Source: Myxococcaceae bacterium (GTDB taxonomy: Bacteria; Myxococcota; Myxococcia; Myxococcales; Myxococcaceae). Taken from it: a stretch of 37,893 bases of DNA. Position numbers and translations under genes: made by a program. Below the pieces are notes generated by a model. It did no database searches and was not told where the DNA came from. It worked only from the letters and a program-made list of their open reading frames with translations. Shown here piece after piece: positions 515 to 11,474 of this stretch (positions are counted from its first letter, which is position 1; each line of letters begins with the position of its first letter). The DNA is taken from contig JADCJJ010000004.1 of the NCBI GenBank assembly GCA_020247085.1, positions 1-37,893 of the forward strand. Direction: 5' to 3'.

Positions 515-817
515 ATGATGGTCGCCCTCACTTCCGAGACCGTGGTGCGTGTGCACCCCGATGCGGTGGTTCAGCGGGTGGGAGGCCGGTTCATGGCCGC
601 GACGGCGGACGACTGCTTGCATAGCTTCGAGGCGCCGGACGGGTCGGTTTCGGAGGTAGGAGAACGGATCATCGAGCTGGTGGACGGGTCCAGGAGCATC
701 GGCGGCATCGTCGACGTCCTGGTAGAGGAGTTCGAGGTCTCGCGCGAGGTCGCCGAGGTCGACACGAGGCAGTTCATCGAGTTGCTTTTGGGTAAGCTGG
801 TGCTCACCGCGGCGTGA
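515..817 (+). CDS. PqqD-like protein (RiPP recognition element family)
   Basis: This is a 100-residue soluble protein. The C-terminal half (about residues 50-98: VGERIIELVDGSRSIGG, a 'VLVEEFEVSREV' helix, then FIELLLGKLVL) has the winged-helix pattern of PqqD: an N-terminal strand pair, 'aexIwxLlDGxrTvaeIv..L', and a terminal 'fLxxLxxkGLv'. Proteins of this family bind leader peptides of ribosomally made, modified peptides and hand them to modifying enzymes. I chose ATG 515 because AGGAG at 502-506 lies eight bases upstream; an in-frame ATG at 488 lacks such a site. The next gene starts 39 bases after the stop, so co-transcription is likely. No radical SAM, YcaO or other modifying enzyme is visible in the window, so its partner is unknown. 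Family assignment is fairly sure; the peptide-binding role is inferred. Confidence 0.7.
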   Translation: MMVALTSETVVRVHPDAVVQRVGGRFMAATADDCLHSFEAPDGSVSEVGERIIELVDGSRSIGGIVDVLVEEFEVSREVAEVDTRQFIELLLGKLVLTAA

Positions 818-856
818 ATCGGCCGCTGGGGGCGAAGCACCATGGGAGACGTGCGA

Positions 857-3800
857 ATGAATCGGGCGGTTTCGGTGCGGGTTGGAGCGATGTTCGCGGC
901 GGTGGTGGCGTTGGGGTCGGGGTGCCCTCCTGCGCCGAGTGATTGCACGGACCTGGTCATCGACACGACCCCGGCGAACGACGCGACCGATGTGAATCAG
1001 GTCGCCGACGTGGTGGCCAGTCTGCGGCGGGGCCCGACGACGCCGGTGGCGGTGGCGACGGGGCGCATCTCGATTCGCGCGGCCGGCGAGAGCGACTTCG
1101 GGGCTGCGGCCGACGCGACGACGGTGGCCGAGGCGAGCGCGACGTTCGCCGGGCGCATGTTCAAGGCGGGCGTGAACGCGTTTCGGGTGACGCTGACGGA
1201 GAAGGACTCGACCTGCGCGGTGACGAAGGACGTGAGCATCACGGTGAAAGAGGCCGTGATGCCGCCGCCGGTCATCGCGGGCTGCGACTTCCCACAGGAC
1301 GCGAACCGCGACGGAGCGCTGAACGGGTCTGAGCTGCCTGGCGGGAGCAACATCGTCGTCCGCGTGCGGACGAACGCCGGCACGGGGGCGGGCGCGACGT
1401 TCTCGGTGCCCAACGGCACGCCGGCCCAGGCCACGGTGACGAACGACGTGGCGCAGGTGGCGGCCCCGGCGCCGGCGATGGACGGGCTGTTCGCGGTCAC
1501 CGGCACGGTGGCGAGGGGCGCGGCGATGGTGACGTGCAGCCCCACGATTCGCGTCCAGCGGACGGCGGGGTGCACCGTCGAGAACACGACGGACCAGTCG
1601 CCCCGGGGCCCGATGGGCGACGCCGACCCGATGACGGCCGGATATCAGGTTCGCACGACCGCGGCGCGCGTGACTGGGACGGTTGCGGCGGCGTCGATGC
1701 GCCTCGGCGGGAACACGCGGGCCATCGACCTGGCGACGATGGCGGCGGCCTCGGCCGACTTCACGGTCGCGAACACGGGCACGCAGTCGTACATGGCGAC
1801 GCTCGAGGCGACTGATGCCGTCGGCAACGCGTGTCAGGTGATGAGCGGAACGCGGGTGGTGCCTGTGGACTTCGACCCGCCGTCCGTGACGATCGCGGCG
1901 CCGACGACGGCCGACGGAGGTCCGGCGCTCATCACCCGCTCCCCGGTGTCGGTGGTGGCGAACGTCGGCATGGGAGACAACGGCGCGACGGCGTGCGCGT
2001 TTCTCGGCGCGACCCAGGTCGACTGCACGACCGTGATGAACGGCGCAGCGGTGCTCTCGGTGCCCTTCGCCTCGGACGGGACGCGCACGGTGACGGTGCG
2101 GGTGACCGACGTCGCTGGCAACGTCGGCTCGGCGGCCGTGACGATCGACGTCGTCCTCTCGGGGTGTGGCGTCGCCTTCTTCGCGCCGCCGTCGAACCCG
2201 GCCCTCATCATCGCGTCGCAGGCGCCGGGTGGAAACTTCACCTTCCGGACGGCGAGCAAGGGCGTGTGCGTGGGTCAGCCGGCCCGCCTCAGCCGCGCCG
2301 TCGTGTCGCCAGACGGAGGCACGTCGATGTTCACGTCGGTCGGGAGCGCCACCCTCACGGCGAGAGCGCTGGGCGACGGAGGCTCGGACGCCGTCGCAGC
2401 CTTCGTGGCGCCGGTCACAAGTGGCGGATACGTGTTTCGGGCTGAGGTGGACAACTTCGGAGATGGGGGCATCGATAGCGCCACCGTGGACGTCAGCGTG
2501 GACCTCGAGGGCCCGGCCATCACGAGCCCTGTCGTGGCGACGGGCCAGACCCGCGCCGTCATCAACGCCTCGCAAGACTCGAACCCAGCGGTCGCCGGAG
2601 CCCAGCGGCTGCTGACCTTCACGGGCCGAATTCCGGCTGGTGGCCGGGCCGATGTCTGCACCACGCAGACCTTCACGGGCGCCGTCGAGGGTGACTGCGG
2701 CACCGGCTGGTTCCGGCTGGCGCAGAGCGTGACGAGCCCTGCCAACGCCTTCACATTCCCCGAGGGCGCGTACCAGCTCAAGGTCGTCATCGTCGCCGGC
2801 GCGACCCGCACCGAATCCCCCGCGGTTCCGGTCACGGTCGACACGGTGCGGCCGTGCGTCCTGGCGAGCTCCGTCCGCTTCCCGCAGGACTCGAACATGG
2901 ACGGGCGCCTGAACGCGACGGAGCTCGGAGCGAGTTCGCCCAACCTCGAGTTCCAGCTCGACCCGGCGTGCGGTGACGTGAACCTCTCGACGCTGGCCAC
3001 GACGGCACCGGTTTCTGCCCGCGAGGTCGTCTCCGGAGCGCCCGCCGCGGCGCTGAACGTGCCCGCCGACGTGTCGTTCGACATGGCCACGGGGCGCGTT
3101 CGGGTCAGCCTCACGCAGGCGGTCGCGAACGAGCGTGACTACACGCTCTTCGTCCAACTGCAGGACGCGGTGGGCAACACCAACTTGTTCTCGGCGGCGC
3201 CCAACCCCGCGGTGGGGAGCGTTCGCGTCGACCGGACGGCGCCGAACTGCGACCTGGTGGCCCCAACGTTGACGACGCTGAACAACTCGAGCGTGCCTGG
3301 CGGCGCGCTCCCCGTCACCATCGCGACGGCGGCCGACGTCGGGACGAACGGCGTCACCGTGACCCTTCAGGGGCTGGCGCCGCTGAGCGCCACGCCCTCG
3401 GGGGCGGGCAACCAGGCCACCGCGACCTTCATGGGGCTGGCAGGTACCAATACCCGAACGCTCACCGCGACGTGTCGCGACGCCTCGGGGAACACCGCGA
3501 GCACTCCGATGCGGACGCTCGTCATCGACCTCGACAACCCGACGTGCTCCATCGCTTCGCCGAGCGTCGCGGCGTCGCCCTACTCCGACCTGAGCATCAC
3601 CACCACCGTGAACGTGTCGGGCGCCGACGGGCGCACGGTGACGGTGTCGTCGACCCAGGGTGGGTCTCGCGGCGCGCTGACGGTTGCGTCAGGCGTAGCG
3701 ACCGGGCCCATCACATACTTGAACGGCACGCAGGACGTCTCGGTGTCGCTGACCGACGCGGCCGGAAACCCGTGCTCGGCGACGGTGACGGGCATCGTGG

Positions 3801-6283
3801 TGAACTCGCTCGACTGCGGGCTGACGCTCACCAACGCGTTCACGAACGCCAACGGGTCGTGGTTCAACCGTGGCAACACCGGCAACCTGACGGCCACCAG
3901 CGGCACGGCGACCATCACGGCGCAGACGTCGGCCTGCACGCCGGGACGAATGCTGACGCTGGTCCGCACCGGGCCGACGGCGGGGACGCCCATCACGGTC
4001 GCGGACGTTGGAGGGACGGCGACGTTCCCGAACGTGGCGCTCAACGACGGTGAGACGTGGACGGTGTCGGTGCCGAACGGTGCCCGGCCCGCGACGACGA
4101 CGAGCTTCCGCGTCGACCTCGATGCGCCGACCTTTGGCGTGGCGCCGACGCAGCTTGGCCAGGCACGCATCAACGGCACGCTGCTGGCTTCGGCCGGGAC
4201 GACCTTCTTCGTGGCGCCCGCCGACAACCGGAACGTCGAGACGGCAGTCGCGGGCTACTTCGCCGACCTCGCGGCGGGGACAGCCGGCGCGCAGGTGAAC
4301 GTCACCGTCGACTCGGTCGAGGCGTTCGACTTCGCACTGAATGGAACCGTGCGGGTGTTGTTCAAGGGAACGGAGCTGACGAGCCTTCCGGTGACGGAGG
4401 CAGCCCAGACGGTGAGCTTCACGGGCTCCGGCTCGGTAACGCTGCCGCACAACGACTCGGGCGCCTTCGTGGTGCGGGTGACGGATGGCGCGGGCAACAG
4501 CCAGGATTGGTCGTCGACGGCGACCATCGACGTCATCGCCCCGGCCGCGCCGACGGTCAGCCAGACCCTCGGTGACGTACGCATCGCCGAGGTGACCCTC
4601 GGGTGGATGCCGACCTTCGACGACGGGACGACATCGAGTTCGGGTGGCCATGCAGGGTACGACCTTCGATGGTCGACGACCTCGGTGCCGGGAAACAGCG
4701 CGCTGCCGACCTCGACTGATTTCTTCAGCTCGGTCGCGAACCCGGAGCCCAACATCGCGTGGTCGGCGAGCCCGACGAGCAACTTCCGCCTCACGGTGCC
4801 GCCGCTCAACGGGTACTACGTCGTGGTGCGTGCCCGCGACGAGGTGGGCAACTACTCGGCGTATGCGGCGCCGACGGTGCTCAACAATTTCTGGACCGAG
4901 GTGACGATCTCGGCGCCGGCCAGCGCCACGAGCGCGAACTTTGGACAGACCGTCGTTGCGGCCCCGAGTTTGAACAACGACACCATCGCCGATCTCGTCG
5001 TGACGGCCCCGACGCGAACCGGCGGCGGCGCGGTGTTCGTGTACTACGGTGCAGCAGGCTTCGCGTCGCAGACGACGTGCGGGGCGGGCTGTCAGGAGCT
5101 CACACCATCAGATGCGGCGGCAGGTCAGTTCGGCAGCGACATCGGCACGGGAGGTAACGTGGGCGACGTGGCCGGCGAGAACAAGCCGGACCTGGTGGTG
5201 GCTCAGGTATCGACCGCAGCAGCCCCGGCGAATGGTGGTCGTGTCGTGATCTTCTTCGGGTCGTCGGGCGCCACAGTCGACCCTGCGCAGTCGATCGAGA
5301 TTCGCGGCGACACCAGCTTCCGAATTGGGTTTACGGCTCGAATCATCCCGTCAATCGACGGCGATGCGTTGGACGAGCTTGCGCTCGCAGCTCCGACGGC
5401 CAACGCGAACCAGGGCCGGCTCTACGTCTTCCGCGGACGGAGCAGGAGCGCGTGGGTCACTGCTCGGACCAGCACTGACCCCGCCACGATGGTGCCTTTC
5501 ATTCCAATCACCTCGGCCGACTATGTCGTTGATGGGCCGACTCCACTTCTCTCCACGGCTGGCAACGCCTTCGGTCAGAATCGCTTCGGGCTCGTCAGCC
5601 TCGGTGACATCAACGCAGACAGCCGACCAGACATTGCGATTCCGACCTCGCGGGCGTCGATCAACCGGTATCGGGTCTACTCAGGGGCAGCCATTGCTTC
5701 GTCTTCTCCGGCTTCTCCGCTGCCAGGCACGAGTTTCATCGCAGAGTTCGTACAGACGGCGGCGACGAACACGTCGCCTGCGGCTGGTCTTGGGGCAAGT
5801 TCCGTCGGCGGGCTCGACGTCATCGATTCGACGGCTCCCGACCTGGTGACCTCGTTCCAGGGTGCTGGCGGTGGAGGCAAGGTCTACATCTTCTCGGCGC
5901 CTGTTCCGATGATGAGCGGGAGCCCCACGCCGACGATCGAGCTGACTGGGCCGCTCACGTTTGGCGCGCAGCTCTCCCTGGCACGCCTCAACGGAGCAGC
6001 CGACCCCCGCATCGACGTGGTCGCGGGCATGGCTCAGACGAGTGGCAATGTCGCGTTCGTCTTGTACGGACAGACTGGACTTCGTCCCTACGCCGGTTCA
6101 GCCCCCAATGTGGTTGGCTCATCCGTCGAATTCTGGCTGAGTCGGTTTGATGCGGCAGCGGTCACTGGAAACACCCTCAGCGCTCTGGGTGGGTCGAACA
6201 CCTCGGGTGACGTCGACGGAAATGGCAATGCTGACCTGGCCCTCGGTGACCGAATCACCGGTCTTGTGAAGGTGTGGCGATGA
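857..6283 (+). CDS. Giant secreted Ig-like / FN3 / seven-repeat FG-GAP surface protein
   Basis: This protein of about 1,808 residues starts at ATG 857, where GGGAG (844-848) gives good spacing; ATG 842 is in frame but has a poorer site. The N-terminus is a signal peptide ending near a Cys (VALGSGC), possibly but not convincingly a lipobox. Residues about 25-1220 are repeated Ig-like beta-sandwich modules with 'D.DxPxxxIxxP' linkers and paired cysteines. Two EF-hand-type loops, at residues about 148-159 and 678-689, each follow an 'FPQD' motif. Residues about 1224-1345 resemble a fibronectin type III domain (LRWSTTSVPG, VVRARDEVGNYSAYA). Residues about 1346-1808 hold seven FG-GAP repeats, some with Ca-binding DxNxDxxxD forms (DINADSRPD, DVDGNGNAD), giving an integrin-alpha-like propeller. 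The likely role is a cell-surface or released adhesion or scaffold protein. The stop TGA (6281-6283) overlaps the start of the next gene. Confidence 0.85.
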   Translation: MNRAVSVRVGAMFAAVVALGSGCPPAPSDCTDLVIDTTPANDATDVNQVADVVASLRRGPTTPVAVATGRISIRAAGESDFGAAADATTVAEASATFAGRMFKAGVNAFRVTLTEKDSTCAVTKDVSITVKEAVMPPPVIAGCDFPQDANRDGALNGSELPGGSNIVVRVRTNAGTGAGATFSVPNGTPAQATVTNDVAQVAAPAPAMDGLFAVTGTVARGAAMVTCSPTIRVQRTAGCTVENTTDQSPRGPMGDADPMTAGYQVRTTAARVTGTVAAASMRLGGNTRAIDLATMAAASADFTVANTGTQSYMATLEATDAVGNACQVMSGTRVVPVDFDPPSVTIAAPTTADGGPALITRSPVSVVANVGMGDNGATACAFLGATQVDCTTVMNGAAVLSVPFASDGTRTVTVRVTDVAGNVGSAAVTIDVVLSGCGVAFFAPPSNPALIIASQAPGGNFTFRTASKGVCVGQPARLSRAVVSPDGGTSMFTSVGSATLTARALGDGGSDAVAAFVAPVTSGGYVFRAEVDNFGDGGIDSATVDVSVDLEGPAITSPVVATGQTRAVINASQDSNPAVAGAQRLLTFTGRIPAGGRADVCTTQTFTGAVEGDCGTGWFRLAQSVTSPANAFTFPEGAYQLKVVIVAGATRTESPAVPVTVDTVRPCVLASSVRFPQDSNMDGRLNATELGASSPNLEFQLDPACGDVNLSTLATTAPVSAREVVSGAPAAALNVPADVSFDMATGRVRVSLTQAVANERDYTLFVQLQDAVGNTNLFSAAPNPAVGSVRVDRTAPNCDLVAPTLTTLNNSSVPGGALPVTIATAADVGTNGVTVTLQGLAPLSATPSGAGNQATATFMGLAGTNTRTLTATCRDASGNTASTPMRTLVIDLDNPTCSIASPSVAASPYSDLSITTTVNVSGADGRTVTVSSTQGGSRGALTVASGVATGPITYLNGTQDVSVSLTDAAGNPCSATVTGIVVNSLDCGLTLTNAFTNANGSWFNRGNTGNLTATSGTATITAQTSACTPGRMLTLVRTGPTAGTPITVADVGGTATFPNVALNDGETWTVSVPNGARPATTTSFRVDLDAPTFGVAPTQLGQARINGTLLASAGTTFFVAPADNRNVETAVAGYFADLAAGTAGAQVNVTVDSVEAFDFALNGTVRVLFKGTELTSLPVTEAAQTVSFTGSGSVTLPHNDSGAFVVRVTDGAGNSQDWSSTATIDVIAPAAPTVSQTLGDVRIAEVTLGWMPTFDDGTTSSSGGHAGYDLRWSTTSVPGNSALPTSTDFFSSVANPEPNIAWSASPTSNFRLTVPPLNGYYVVVRARDEVGNYSAYAAPTVLNNFWTEVTISAPASATSANFGQTVVAAPSLNNDTIADLVVTAPTRTGGGAVFVYYGAAGFASQTTCGAGCQELTPSDAAAGQFGSDIGTGGNVGDVAGENKPDLVVAQVSTAAAPANGGRVVIFFGSSGATVDPAQSIEIRGDTSFRIGFTARIIPSIDGDALDELALAAPTANANQGRLYVFRGRSRSAWVTARTSTDPATMVPFIPITSADYVVDGPTPLLSTAGNAFGQNRFGLVSLGDINADSRPDIAIPTSRASINRYRVYSGAAIASSSPASPLPGTSFIAEFVQTAATNTSPAAGLGASSVGGLDVIDSTAPDLVTSFQGAGGGGKVYIFSAPVPMMSGSPTPTIELTGPLTFGAQLSLARLNGAADPRIDVVAGMAQTSGNVAFVLYGQTGLRPYAGSAPNVVGSSVEFWLSRFDAAAVTGNTLSALGGSNTSGDVDGNGNADLALGDRITGLVKVWR

Positions 6284-6450
6284 AGACGAACTCCGCGAAG
6301 AAGCGCCCCTACGTGAAGCCGATCGTGTCGACGCTCGCGCTGCTCCCGAGTTCGACCGTGCTCTTGGCCTGCACGAACCAAGTGGACTGCTACGGGAACG
6401 GGACGTGCTGCGCGCCGGACGTTGACGCATGCGTTCTTGACTGTCCGTGA
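6280..6450 (+). CDS. Small six-cysteine peptide, possible RiPP precursor or lipopeptide
   Basis: This 56-codon gene begins with ATG 6280-6282, overlapping the TGA of the giant surface-protein gene (ATGA), which suggests coupled translation. Residues 1-14 are basic and polar and include KKRPYVKP; residues 15-30 are hydrophobic (IVSTLALLPSSTVLLA). Residues 31-56 are rich in Cys (31, 37, 43, 44, 51, 55), Asp and Asn. Two readings compete. (1) RiPP precursor: the YxxPxV motif resembles leader motifs bound by RRE domains, and a PqqD-like RRE protein is encoded two genes upstream. (2) Small lipoprotein: a basic n-region, hydrophobic h-region and 'LLAC' lipobox would lipidate Cys31 and leave a 26-residue Cys-rich tail. 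I do not recognise a named family. No peptidase or exporter is dedicated to it, although an ABC transporter operon follows 440 bases on. Confidence 0.6.
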   Translation: MKTNSAKKRPYVKPIVSTLALLPSSTVLLACTNQVDCYGNGTCCAPDVDACVLDCP

Positions 6451-6889: not shown

Positions 6890-7822
6890 ATGATTCAGGT
6901 CGACGGCTTGAGCAAATTCTATGGAGAGCACGCAGCCATTCGCGGGCTCTCGTTCAACATCCAGTCGGGCGAGGTGGTCGGGTTCCTCGGCCTCAACGGC
7001 GCGGGTAAGAGCACCACGCTGAAGGTGCTGGGCTGCGTGCTGCTCCCGACCTCGGGGCGCGTCATCGTCGATGGCTTCGACGTCACGCGCGAGCCCCACG
7101 AGATCCGCAAGCGCATCGGGTACCTGCCCGACACGCCGCCCATCTACGACGAGATGTCCGTCGGCGAGTACCTCACCTTCGTCGCCAGGCTCCGCGGCGT
7201 GCCGCAGGCCAACGTCGCCGGCGCCGTCGCCGAGGCCGAGAGGAAGACGGCCATCAGCGAGAAGCACGAGGACGTCATCGGGACGCTGTCGCACGGCTAC
7301 CGGCAGCGCGTCGGCCTCGCGCAGGCCTTGGTGCACAAGCCGAAGCTGCTCATCCTCGACGAGCCCACCGGTGGCCTCGACCCCGTGCAGATCGTCGAGA
7401 TGCGCGAGGTCATCAAGGGCCTCAAGGGCGAGCACACGGTGCTCGTCTCGTCCCACATCCTCGGAGAGATCTCCCAGGTGTGCGATCGCTACCTCGTCAT
7501 TCAGGGTGGCGAGCTCATCGCCCAGGGTACCGAAGCCGAGCTTTCGGACAAACTGGGCTCGGGCGGCCCCATCGAGATTGACTGCATCGGCGCCGCTGGC
7601 CCCACCATCGAGCTGCTGAAGAAGGTCGACGGCGTCTCCGACATCACCCTCGTCAAGCTCGACGGCCAGAACCTGTCGCTCCGCGTCGACGCGAAGACCG
7701 AGCTCCGCCCGGCGCTGGTGAAGGCGCTCGTGCAGGCCAACGTGGCCGTGGTGCGCGTCGACCGCGCCGCCCACCGGCTCGAGAACATCTTCCTCAAGCT
7801 GACCCACGGAAAGGACGCGTGA
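6890..7822 (+). CDS. gldA: ABC transporter ATP-binding protein, GldA type
   Basis: This 310-residue cytoplasmic ATPase drives the transporter formed with the next two genes. Visible motifs are Walker A GLNGAGKST (residues 34-42, Lys40), signature LSHGYRQR (133-140), Walker B LLILDEP (153-159, catalytic Glu158) and H-loop His189. A C-terminal extension of about 100 residues after the nucleotide-binding domain is usual for ABC-2 exporters of the NatA/GldA kind. ATG 6890 has no Shine-Dalgarno sequence, which fits the leaderless promoter noted upstream. Its stop TGA shares a base with the ATG of the permease gene (TGATG at 7820-7824). In Bacteroidetes GldA/F/G are linked to gliding; in other phyla the same set is common with no settled substrate, so the gliding name should not be read as function here. 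Confidence 0.9.
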   Translation: MIQVDGLSKFYGEHAAIRGLSFNIQSGEVVGFLGLNGAGKSTTLKVLGCVLLPTSGRVIVDGFDVTREPHEIRKRIGYLPDTPPIYDEMSVGEYLTFVARLRGVPQANVAGAVAEAERKTAISEKHEDVIGTLSHGYRQRVGLAQALVHKPKLLILDEPTGGLDPVQIVEMREVIKGLKGEHTVLVSSHILGEISQVCDRYLVIQGGELIAQGTEAELSDKLGSGGPIEIDCIGAAGPTIELLKKVDGVSDITLVKLDGQNLSLRVDAKTELRPALVKALVQANVAVVRVDRAAHRLENIFLKLTHGKDA

Positions 7823-8544
7823 TGAACAACGTGTGGCTCATCGCCCGCCGCGAGCTGGGCGCGTACCTTCGCAACCTCAGCGGCTACGTCATCATCGCGG
7901 TGCTGCTCTTCCTCGACGGGCTGGCCTTCAACGCCTTCGCCGTCCAGGGCGCCGCCAAGAAGTCGTCCGAGGTGCTCGCAGACTTCTTCTTCTTCACCTC
8001 GGGCATCGGCATGGCCGGCGCCATTTTCCTCTCGATGCGCCTCATCGCCGAGGAGCGCCAGACGGGCACCGTGCAGCTGCTCTACAGCTCGCCCATTCAC
8101 GACCGCGAGATCGTCGCCGGCAAGTTCCTCGCCGCCCTCGCCTTCCTCTGCCTCTTCTTCCTGGGCACCGGGTACATGCCGGCGCTCGTCGCGGTGTACG
8201 GCAAGGTGTCGCTCGGTCACGTGCTCTCCGGCTACCTGGGCCTGGTGCTCGTCGGCGCGTCGAGCCTCGCCATCGGGCTGTTCGGCAGCTCGCTCACGAA
8301 GAGCCAGGTCGTCGCCGCCGTCGGCTCGGCCGTCATGTGCATCGGCCTCACGATGTGCTGGCTGGTCGCCAAGGTCGTCGACCGGCCCTTCACCGACGTC
8401 ATCACCGGGCTGGCCTGGTACGGCCACTTCGACCCCTTCAAGAACGGCATCGTGCACCTCAAGCACGTCGTCTACTTCGCGCTCGTCACCTTGTTCGCGC
8501 TCTTCGCCGCCACGCGCGTGCTCGAAGCGCGGAGGTGGAGGTAA
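7822..8544 (+). CDS. gldF: ABC-2 type permease, GldF type
   Basis: This 240-residue inner-membrane protein has about six hydrophobic helices (roughly residues 18-38, 55-75, 97-120, 128-150, 160-180 and 215-235). After the second helix it has an amphipathic 'MRLIAEERQTGTVQLLYSSPI' stretch, the coupling-region signature of the ABC-2 permease family. ATG 7822 is preferred over GTG 7819 because AAGGA at 7811-7815 is well spaced and it gives the one-base TGATG overlap with the ATPase gene. It should form the membrane channel energised by the ATPase. The gene ends three bases before the next start, so it sits in a tight operon. Confidence 0.88.
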   Translation: MNNVWLIARRELGAYLRNLSGYVIIAVLLFLDGLAFNAFAVQGAAKKSSEVLADFFFFTSGIGMAGAIFLSMRLIAEERQTGTVQLLYSSPIHDREIVAGKFLAALAFLCLFFLGTGYMPALVAVYGKVSLGHVLSGYLGLVLVGASSLAIGLFGSSLTKSQVVAAVGSAVMCIGLTMCWLVAKVVDRPFTDVITGLAWYGHFDPFKNGIVHLKHVVYFALVTLFALFAATRVLEARRWR

Positions 8545-8547
8545 GCC

Positions 8548-10398
8548 ATGCGCAGCTTCATGCTCTCGCTCGGCCTCGCGCTCGGCCTGGTGTTCGTCTG
8601 GGTCGGCGAGCGCGTCGTCGACCCCGACCTGCGTGCCTTCTTCACCGTCGGCGGCACCGCCCTCATGCTCGCGGTCATCGGCCTGCGCGCGAGCCGGCTC
8701 AACGTCGCCGCCACCGGGCAGATCGAGCGCCTGCTGCTCGGCCTGCACGGCCTGGTCTTCCTCGCCGTCGGCCTCTACGTCGTCCAGTCGGACCTGTGGG
8801 CGAAGGTCGCCGGGCAGACGCTCGAGACGGAGTGGCCGAAGCTCGCCGGGAGCCTCGCGGCGCTGGTGCCGGCCTTGCTCGCCGTCGCCCTCATTCCCAC
8901 GCTCCTCGTCGAGCTCTCCTACGCCGCGATGGCGAAGGCCCCGGTGATGGAGGTCGGCCGCGTGCAGGAGGCCGCCAACGCCGGCCTCGGGCTGGGCTTC
9001 GTCGCCATCTTCGCCTTCTCGCTCCAGTACGTCGTGACGGAGCGTGACGTGAAGAAGGACTTCTCGTACTTCCGCACCGCGCGCCCCGGCGACGCCACGC
9101 GGCGCCTCGTCAACTCCCTCGACGAGCCCCTCGAGGTGTACCTCTTCTTCCCGCCGGCCTCCGACGTCTCCACCGTCACCCAGGCCTACTTCGACGAGCT
9201 CAAGGCCGAGTCGGCGATGCTCAAGGTGCAGGTGCTCGACCAGGCGCTCGAGCCGGTGAAGTCCAAGGACCTCGGCGTCAGCAACAACGGCACCGTGGTG
9301 CTCAAGAAGAAGGAGCGCAAGGAGTCGCTCTACCTCGGCACCGAGATCGAGAAGTCGCGCACCCAGCTCCGCGGGCTCGACGCCGAGGTGCAGAAGCGCG
9401 TGCTGCAGATCGCCAAGACCCGGCGCACCGTCTACTTCACCCAGGGCCACGGCGAGCGCACGCAGGACCCCGTCTCTGGCGACCAGCGCCCCACCATCGA
9501 CAAGCTGTGGCGCGCGCTCCAGGAGCAGAACTTCGACGTGCGCACGCTCTCGGCCGCCGAGGGCCTCGGCCAGGACGTGCCCCGTGACGCCGCCGCCGTC
9601 TTCGTGCTGGGGCCGACCCGGGCCTTCCCGCCCCCCGAAGCGAGCGCGCTCGTCGAGTACGGCAAGCGCGGCGGCAAGCTGTTCATCGCGCTCGACCCCG
9701 AGGCGGGGCTCGGCTTCGAGGAGCTGCTGACGCCGCTCGGCCTGTCGTTCAGACCCGAGGTGCTCACCGACGACAAGATGTTCGCGCGCATCGGCCGGCA
9801 GGCCTCTCCTGCCGACTTCCGGAACATCGGCACTCGCACCTTCTCGTCGCACCCGGCCGTCACCACGCTTTCGCGCGCGCAGGCGGCGGTGCTGCTCGTC
9901 GGCGCTGGCCCCCTGAAGGAGCTCGACACCCACCCCGCCGACCTCGTCATCGACATGGCGCTCCGCTCACAGTCGACGACGTGGAACGACGCCAACAACA
10001 ACTTCACCGCCGACGCGCCCGGCGAGGTGAGGCAGGCCTACGGGCTGCTCGCCGCCGTCACCCGCCGCGCCGCGAGCAACAAGGTCGAGGACGAGCTGCG
10101 GGTGCTGGTGCTGAGCGACTCCGACGCCATCACCGACGACATCGTCGATGCCCTCGAGGGCAACGTGCGGCTGGTGCTCGACGGCATGAAGTGGCTGTTG
10201 GGTGAGGAGCAGCTGCAGGGCACCACGAACTCCGAGCTCGACGTGCCGATGACGCGCACCCGGAGCCAGGACAGCGCCTGGTTCTACGGCACCACCTTCC
10301 TCGCGCCGGTGCTGGTGCTGGCGCTGGGGTTCCTCGTTCGACGGCGCGGCAACCGCCCACGTTCGGCCCCGGCCGCCGCCGCGGAGGTGAAGTCATGA
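8548..10398 (+). CDS. gldG: GldG-family auxiliary ABC membrane protein
   Basis: This 616-residue protein has four N-terminal membrane helices (within residues 1-160), a large soluble part (about 185-575) and one C-terminal helix (about 578-597). The soluble part begins with the pattern of GldG/ABC-auxiliary proteins (KDFSYFRTARPGDATRR, 'LDEPLEVYLFFP', 'YFDELKAE', 'FTQGHGERT'). These resemble a periplasm-facing glutamine-amidotransferase-like fold without a catalytic Cys. Four extra helices ahead of the domain are more than the single anchor of many homologues. Its role in the complex is unknown; it is nearly always co-encoded with a GldA/GldF pair. The stop overlaps the next ATG (ATGA at 10395-10398). 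Confidence 0.82.
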   Translation: MRSFMLSLGLALGLVFVWVGERVVDPDLRAFFTVGGTALMLAVIGLRASRLNVAATGQIERLLLGLHGLVFLAVGLYVVQSDLWAKVAGQTLETEWPKLAGSLAALVPALLAVALIPTLLVELSYAAMAKAPVMEVGRVQEAANAGLGLGFVAIFAFSLQYVVTERDVKKDFSYFRTARPGDATRRLVNSLDEPLEVYLFFPPASDVSTVTQAYFDELKAESAMLKVQVLDQALEPVKSKDLGVSNNGTVVLKKKERKESLYLGTEIEKSRTQLRGLDAEVQKRVLQIAKTRRTVYFTQGHGERTQDPVSGDQRPTIDKLWRALQEQNFDVRTLSAAEGLGQDVPRDAAAVFVLGPTRAFPPPEASALVEYGKRGGKLFIALDPEAGLGFEELLTPLGLSFRPEVLTDDKMFARIGRQASPADFRNIGTRTFSSHPAVTTLSRAQAAVLLVGAGPLKELDTHPADLVIDMALRSQSTTWNDANNNFTADAPGEVRQAYGLLAAVTRRAASNKVEDELRVLVLSDSDAITDDIVDALEGNVRLVLDGMKWLLGEEQLQGTTNSELDVPMTRTRSQDSAWFYGTTFLAPVLVLALGFLVRRRGNRPRSAPAAAAEVKS

Positions 10399-11474
10399 AG
10401 TCGAAGAGCGTGGCGCTCACCGGCGCGCTCGCCGCGCTGGGCCTGGCGTTGGCGTACCTGACGTGGCAGCGGCCGAAGGAGACCGCCTCGGCCGGCAATC
10501 TCATCAAGGTGGTGGACGCGTCGAAGTCGTCGTTCCAGTCGCTCAAGTACGAAGACGGCCAGCGACAGCTCTCCCTCAAGCGAGAGAACGGCGAGCTGTG
10601 GCTCACCACCGGCTTCATGCCGGGCAAGGAGCCCGCGCCAGTCGACGCGGGGCTGACGGTGACCGAACTGCCCCTCGTTGACGGCGGCCTCGACACCGAC
10701 GGCGGCCTGGTCGACGCGGGCGTCCTGCAGGTGACGCAGACGCCGCCGCCGAAGCCGCCCCCGACGCGCGTGCTGAAGGGCAACGAGCGGGCCGAGGCGG
10801 CGCTCCAGAAGTTCATGCCGCTCGAGGCCACCCGCGCCCTGGGCCCCCTGTCTCCCGAGAAGTTGGCAGAGCTGGGCCTCACCGACTCGCCCCGCCGCCT
10901 CGAGCTCGTCGTCGGCGGCACCGCCCGCGTCTTCACCGTCGCCAAGACGCTGCCGGGCATCTTCGGCCTCTACATGCAGGAGGAGCGCACGAAGGACGTG
11001 TTCCTCTTCCCTGGGTCGCTGCTGGCCGACTTCGACCCCCAGTCGCAGGTGTTGGTCGACCGCCGGCTCCACGCCTTCAAGCAGGCCGAGTTTGACGCCT
11101 TCGTCGTCAAAGCCGACGGCAAAGAGGCGGCCTTCGTGCAGTCGAACGCCGAACTCCCGACGACCGCGAAGGTGGCCCGCGCCGCCTCGCCCGACAAGCC
11201 CGACGAGCTGGTGAAGAACTGGCACGACAAGGTGTGGGGCCGCCTCATCGTCACCGAGGTGCTGGGGAAGGGCGAGCTGCCGCTGGGCGCGGAGCCGACG
11301 GTGGTGCTGCGCGTCGACTACACCTTCAAGGGCCGGGAGAAGGGCTGGCTCGAGCTGGCCGTGGACGCGTCGAAGGGGACCTGGGCGCGGAGCGAGAACA
11401 CCGCCTCGTGGGTCGCCGTGCACCAGGGGAGCGACGAACTGCTCATCGAGGCGCGGAAGCTGGTGCTCGAGTAG
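10395..11474 (+). CDS. DUF4340-family protein of the Gld-type ABC operon
   Basis: This 359-residue protein has one N-terminal membrane anchor (about residues 7-24) and a large, probably periplasmic domain. Pairing with GldA/F/G homologues, the single anchor, and repeated 'L.L.VGG.ARVFTV', 'FLFPGSLLADFD' and 'DRRLHAFKQAEFDAF' segments are typical of DUF4340 proteins. Residues about 76-132 are a low-complexity Asp/Gly/Pro insert (VDGGLDTDGGLVDAG, then TPPPKPPPTR) that looks like a myxobacterial linker rather than part of the fold. It is translationally coupled to the previous gene and is the last gene of the operon. The molecular role is unknown. Confidence 0.75.
   Translation: MKSKSVALTGALAALGLALAYLTWQRPKETASAGNLIKVVDASKSSFQSLKYEDGQRQLSLKRENGELWLTTGFMPGKEPAPVDAGLTVTELPLVDGGLDTDGGLVDAGVLQVTQTPPPKPPPTRVLKGNERAEAALQKFMPLEATRALGPLSPEKLAELGLTDSPRRLELVVGGTARVFTVAKTLPGIFGLYMQEERTKDVFLFPGSLLADFDPQSQVLVDRRLHAFKQAEFDAFVVKADGKEAAFVQSNAELPTTAKVARAASPDKPDELVKNWHDKVWGRLIVTEVLGKGELPLGAEPTVVLRVDYTFKGREKGWLELAVDASKGTWARSENTASWVAVHQGSDELLIEARKLVLE

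Follow-up and report, generated by a model that had tools for sequence, protein, structure and literature searches.

The described system closest to the locus considered here is that of the linear polyphosphorylated peptides (LPP; LppA, LppB, LppK and LppS) of the Bacillota, to which it is said to be limited (Popov et al., 2026; PMC13381572). In this system a discrete recognition element (RRE) for ribosomally synthesized and post-translationally modified peptides (RiPPs), LppB, is accompanied by a precursor with a YxxPxV leader, by an HprK-like kinase, LppK, which phosphorylates Ser3 of the core, and by a signal-peptidase-like (SpI) protein, LppS, which cleaves the peptide only together with the RRE (PMC13381572). 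The YxxP motif is the part of the leader that is bound by the RREs of both lasso peptide and LPP systems, the binding mode being known from structures 5v1v and 9x8z, and in LppB an Asp contacts the leader Tyr while a Phe four residues later divides the pocket (PMC13381572). We describe here a locus of a Myxococcaceae bacterium that contains a related set of genes. The DNA analysed (referred to as the window) is 37,893 nucleotides long and consists of one entire contig (G000:C334) of a genome assembly in 641 contigs. Three successive open reading frames (ORFs) on its forward strand, which code for an RRE, a giant protein predicted to be a lipoprotein and a peptide of 56 amino acids, form an operon-like run (Table 1). 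The RRE and giant genes are separated by 39 bases, and the giant and peptide genes are joined by an ATGA overlap, in which the peptide ATG at 6280 overlaps the TGA of the giant gene; this layout is the one that had been read in the initial annotation of the sequence. With moderate confidence, we interpret the operon as an RRE-guided peptide maturation system that is coupled to a surface lipoprotein.

The features that the system shares with LPP are a discrete RRE, a short precursor with a YxxPxV leader, an HprK-like kinase, an SpI-like peptidase, putatively of archaeal type, with conserved Ser and His, and the absence of a cyclase from the locus. However, of the LPP consensus YxxPxVLxHQxIxFETxxS the window peptide matches YxxPxV only, and the NTP transferase and MsbA-like transporter that LPP clusters carry are both missing from the window locus. 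Because these three features are lacking at the locus, we have not filed the system as a member of LPP. The scores of the RRE profile, which give a ranking and not a tree, also place TbiB1 and PqqD above LppB. In comparison with LPP, the giant integrin-propeller lipoprotein between RRE and peptide, the Cys-rich core, the conserved synteny and vertical inheritance within the Myxococcota, and the dispersed enzymes, which are unlinked in the window's genus, are new. Two NTP_transf_5 proteins are encoded elsewhere in the window genome (L135 and L136; G000:C288:18205-18855 and G000:C49:16947-17687).

The 100-residue protein, which had been proposed to be an RRE, passed the curated cut-off of 23.4 for Pfam PqqD (PF05402) with 40 bits (E=4.9e-10). 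With the equivalog TIGR03859 for pyrroloquinoline quinone (PQQ) biosynthesis it scored 30.3 bits, under the cut-off of 46, and a role in PQQ biosynthesis was rejected on this ground. When a profile of 19 relatives was compared with solved structures, the nearest were TbiB1 (1.6e-8), PqqD, PbaB1 (1.6e-4), TfuB1 and LppB (0.002), in this order, and the majority of the members retain the Asp and the Phe four residues on. The likely start is the ATG at 515, with AGGAG located about 10 bases 5' of it, and the stop is at 817. The window genome holds no other PqqD-family protein, and hence its HprK-like kinase and SpI (see below), if RRE-dependent, would use this RRE. In two relatives the peptides have WxxP in place of YxxP (L044:1683-1838 and L048:4445-4618); in L048 the RRE Asp expected to bind Tyr is a Glu, a possible co-variation of RRE and leader.

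The presence of the three genes as neighbours in relatives had been set beforehand as a test. The RRE was found in 49 of 195 genomes of the phylum by a search whose first pass was heuristic; most of these relatives belong to one bacterial family, and many of the genomes are metagenome assemblies. Up to 19 kb was collected around 40 RRE loci, and with the window 36 of these reach the peptide position, whereas five contigs end short of it. The trio recurs in the relatives, and the position of the peptide is kept in all 36 loci. A narrower RRE alignment, compared with named genomes, gave 19 named loci, which include those of Archangium violaceum Cb vi76 and Archangium lansinium. The family was represented by 96 genomes, of which 37 have both RRE and giant and 57 lack both; two have the RRE only, their contigs ending there, and none has the giant only. 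The Fisher value for this co-occurrence is 1e-24, but the genomes are related and represent far fewer independent events. One genome (G140) was excluded from the count, as its match belongs to a second cassette that is described below. More telling than these counts is that in genus groups g6 and g20, in each of which one genome was inspected, RRE, giant, peptide and kinase are absent as a block between etfAB and EamA, and the SpI gene remains (L103:8678-10255 and L104:8682-9995, the Ser/His motif being read in L104). In other families of the phylum, a long ORF, a kinase and a YxxP-type peptide are seen at four loci (L107, L106, L100 and L114). The last of these (L114:1-10271; G006, a distant family) codes for an RRE, a giant of 2,306 amino acids, a Cys-free YxxP peptide, HprK, a radical S-adenosylmethionine protein and SpI; the radical protein is best matched by the YydG peptide epimerase family (E 1.1e-21) and is a further possible modifying enzyme.

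The small ORF noted in the initial annotation is likewise conserved. A peptide ORF with the motif [YW]xxPx(V/I/L/T/M) is present in 36/36 loci with enough DNA, the window counted in, as one copy per locus in the same position, nearly always directly 3' of the giant gene. The ratio of nonsynonymous to synonymous substitution rates (dN/dS) was 0.04-0.47 for the computable pairs, which indicates that the ORF is translated and constrained. Across the relatives the leader motif is kept while the remaining leader varies, and the core is variable. Alignment of the peptides from the window's clade showed that a C-C-CC-C-C framework recurs in them with variable loops, a pattern similar to that of knottins and other C-C-CC-C-C disulfide peptides. 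In the peptides of other genera the Cys number two to four or are spaced differently, and one distant relative is without Cys. A knottin fold was not established for the core, the model of which had a predicted local distance difference test score (pLDDT) of about 80, a predicted template modelling score (pTM) of 0.31 and no Foldseek match. In 24 of the 36 peptides the first core Cys has a Ser or Thr as its immediate neighbour, and in five more this residue lies one position further; to judge from these sequences, this residue is a candidate phosphoacceptor.

The middle gene had been called integrin-like, and structure comparison confirmed this as a valid statement on fold, although a common fold does not show a common function. 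Pfam matches were obtained to FG-GAP in four stretches (E=3.2e-11) and to the Big_13 immunoglobulin (Ig)-like domain (1.1e-7). The C-terminal 505 residues were modelled by AlphaFold2 with a pLDDT of 90 and a pTM of 0.90; the best 50 Foldseek matches of this propeller model were all integrin chains (E 4e-15), and VIA-align superposed it on integrin alpha-M with Z 33.6 and a root mean square deviation of 3.0 over 361 aligned residues. The likeness to the headpiece of the integrin alpha subunit lies in the FG-GAP beta-propeller fold; in contrast to the latter, the giant is a predicted bacterial lipoprotein with bacterial Ig-like domains, the identity is 16-19%, and no beta-subunit partner is known for it. 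The prediction of a lipoprotein is based upon the Cys that ends the signal region, which is invariant in 23 relatives; relatives show it preceded by V-T-G, L-T-G or V-S-G. The most likely start of the gene is the ATG at 857, the Met of which is almost invariant across the same number of relatives; the longest ORF begins at 842 and the end is at 6283. The gene has frame breaks in a few loci, which we take for assembly errors or decay.

It had further been noted that no modifying enzyme is visible. This holds for the window locus but not for the genome, where an HprK-like kinase and SpI lie elsewhere. Two genes, one for SpI and one for an HprK-like kinase (about 250 amino acids), come after the peptide gene in 25 of the 36 loci, in either order; with RRE, giant and peptide they make up a cassette of five genes. 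In four more loci the kinase is nearby. Over the 96 family genomes, the counts for RRE and HprK ortholog are identical to those for RRE and giant (37/2/0/57). Members of the kinase family share a conserved P-loop, preceded by an invariant His, and an (S/T)DE motif; the family matches HprK-related kinases A and B, below the curated cut-offs in the two scans shown (the best E to HprK_rel_A among members being 1.1e-9). In the SpI family, which is fused to a GNAT domain in some genera, Ser and His are invariant and spaced 38 residues, compared with 39 for S29/H68 of LppS; the closest match of its profile, weak with an E of 0.019, is SEC11A, the SEC11 of eukaryotes and a signal peptidase of archaeal type, and 8 of 12 members have an S24/S26 Pfam match. 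In the window's genus both enzymes are encoded off the locus, with one kinase ortholog in each of seven genomes and SpI elsewhere in six of the seven. The window genome contains one HprK ortholog (G000:C596, E 3e-71), the start of which is lost at a contig end and in which the P-loop GKSGDGKST and the preceding His are intact, and one full-length SpI (G000:C187, E 2e-34) with Ser and His intact. Neither a second RRE nor a convincing YxxP peptide was seen near the dispersed SpI genes of this genus. In the related genera g4, g13 and g26 the kinase gene, where visible, is about 2-4 kb 3' of the peptide and SpI is elsewhere, an arrangement that looks like intermediate stages of enzyme dispersal.

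The profile searches with kinase and SpI also revealed a second cassette, which in the three loci where it was read (Table 1) codes in order for SpI, an RRE, one small lipoprotein, one secreted protein (about 1,030 amino acids), a peptide and HprK. The peptide motif of this cassette, YxxPx(V/I)LWEQPFVALAQxS, was found in 53 genomes and had no match in the window genome. Its leader agrees with the LPP consensus down to a Ser located 18 residues past the Tyr, and is much closer to it than the window peptide is; by this resemblance the second cassette probably represents a true LPP-like system from outside the Bacillota. The large protein of the cassette ends in a PQQ/BamB-type propeller. The main reason for thinking that peptide and propeller cooperate is that these two cassettes, with differing propellers, share the order propeller gene, then peptide gene. 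This also makes the initial idea of a peptide displayed or captured by the propeller more plausible. In one genome (L109:7830-11522; G070), a lone SpI gene, with no adjoining RRE seen, has as its neighbour a second Cys-rich peptide (RRWAAPQVRS...LLCTSGTPITCEGGACCDVDPDCQTIC, C-C-CC-C-C), which is directly 3' of a 1,010-aa propeller-type protein.

The sequence of events that we infer for the system is as follows. The RRE would bind the small peptide by its YxxPxV leader, a recognition step that is well supported, and would present the peptide both to the HprK-like kinase, by which the core may be phosphorylated on the candidate Ser/Thr by the first core Cys, and to the SpI-like serine peptidase, by which the leader would be removed; for the window peptide a plausible site is near LLA/C. 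The freed Cys-rich peptide of about 26 residues would form its disulfides outside the cytoplasm and, hypothetically, act by binding to the giant integrin-propeller lipoprotein that is translated just ahead of it. In the window's genus, the relocated kinase and peptidase genes would act in trans. A number of observations weigh against this scheme. Among the peptides no phosphoacceptor position is invariant, the Ser/Thr pattern being that of 24/36 plus 5 peptides, and in the family-level versions of SpI no position could be assigned to the catalytic Asp. Kinase and peptidase are encoded off the locus in the window genome, so that their action on the peptide is deduced from their single copy and from relatives, and SpI is also retained in genomes without this RRE. 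No transporter is linked to the locus, which leaves export without explanation, and contact between peptide and propeller has gene order alone in its favour.

Other interpretations of the locus differ in what the peptide is taken to be. A secreted RiPP-like signal or antimicrobial, with the giant as its immunity or receptor protein and not its structural partner, would fit the variable core and conserved leader, which are typical of precursor peptides, as well as the fast divergence of the giant itself (26-71% identity in the propeller region). However, patchy bacteriocin clusters are unlike this system, which is single copy, occupies conserved positions in the chromosome and has one peptide at each locus, and which lacks an exporter and a dedicated immunity gene; we regard this interpretation as rather unlikely. 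That the RRE, kinase and peptidase target the giant or some other substrate, the peptide being merely a regulatory or stabilising small protein, is in our view improbable: the unlinking of kinase and peptidase in the window's genus and the persistence of SpI without this RRE in some genera speak for it, but the YxxP motif, which RREs of this class are known to target, is found in all 36 peptides and persists through changes in the remaining leader.

A still smaller chance is given to the peptide being a small Sec-exported lipoprotein to which the RRE is unrelated. Within the window's clade, the first Cys of the core does stand in the contexts LLAC, LTGC and LLGC, of which LLAC resembles a lipobox; yet the stretch ahead of it is hydrophilic in close relatives (e.g., KKPYHRPLVASVQNSSKSVLLAC), the lipobox-like motif is absent from other genera, and the conserved element is YxxP. 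Discrete-RRE lasso systems (TbiB1, TfuB1, PbaB1) resemble the window system in RRE fold and in recognition of a YxxP leader, and paeninodin types use an HprK kinase too. With a lasso B1 protein, TbiB1, as the closest solved RRE and a leader motif common to both, one could suppose a lasso pathway whose enzymes were lost or dispersed. This is mostly refuted already and very improbable, as the B2 leader protease family (PF13471) had no match in the whole window genome, there is no cyclase at the locus, and the cassette genes seen in the relatives include neither B2 nor a macrolactam synthetase (C protein), for the latter of which no genome-wide search was made.

Table 1. Features of the locus in the window, and loci of the second cassette (locus identifiers precede the coordinates).
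Feature	Position	Strand	Evidence
Discrete RRE (PqqD-like leader-binding protein), 100 aa	515..817	+	Pfam PqqD; profile of relatives
Predicted giant lipoprotein, ~1,808 aa, Ig-like domains and C-terminal integrin-type propeller	857..6283	+	ORF; FG-GAP; Big_13
Codon of invariant Cys closing signal sequence, predicted lipidation site	923..925	+	C28 in alignment of 23 relatives
Bacterial Ig-like domain (Big_13) match	2018..2149	+	Pfam
Integrin-alpha-type beta-propeller with FG-GAP repeats	4799..6280	+	AlphaFold2; Foldseek; VIA-align
Precursor peptide gene, 56 aa, six Cys	6280..6450	+	ORF; conserved position; dN/dS below 1
Leader motif YVKPIV (YxxPxV)	6310..6327	+	[YW]xxP in 36/36 peptides
Cys-rich core C-x5-C-x5-CC-x6-C-x3-C	6370..6447	+	Alignment of peptides
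Second cassette	L099:8085-13476		
Second cassette	L101:7284-12587		
Second cassette	L108:2326-7596		

A heme O synthase gene, the end of which lies at 1-318, precedes the trio on its 5' side. On its 3' side, 439 bases past the peptide gene, is a gliding-type ABC transporter operon (6890-11474) with genes for a GldA-like ABC ATPase, an ABC-2 permease, ABC_transp_aux and DUF4340; it is likewise downstream in a relative from the genus (L055) and lies outside the cassette. Scans for terminators and sigma-70 promoters gave no signal over chance. In the literature, no paper was found that joins RRE/PqqD, FG-GAP and myxobacteria; the RRE-Finder paper makes no mention of HPr kinase or signal peptidase, and a structure-based RRE paper makes none of HPr kinase, signal peptidase or FG-GAP.

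These results extend the RRE/HprK/SpI chemistry, reported in 2026 as limited to the Bacillota, to a conserved syntenic trait of the Myxococcota, and they link it to a giant integrin-propeller surface lipoprotein. A more tentative possibility is that the conserved RRE systems of this phylum make a phosphorylated, leader-cleaved peptide whose dedicated role is to bind or cap a beta-propeller that is secreted and is of integrin-like type in one cassette and BamB/PQQ-like in the other. If true, this would be a bacterial propeller-peptide pair that may control surface adhesion and in which the ligand is made by RiPP-type chemistry. The role of phosphorylated RRE peptides becomes testable in culturable Archangium strains, and the findings suggest that some RRE peptides may serve the cell's own surface instead of chemical warfare.

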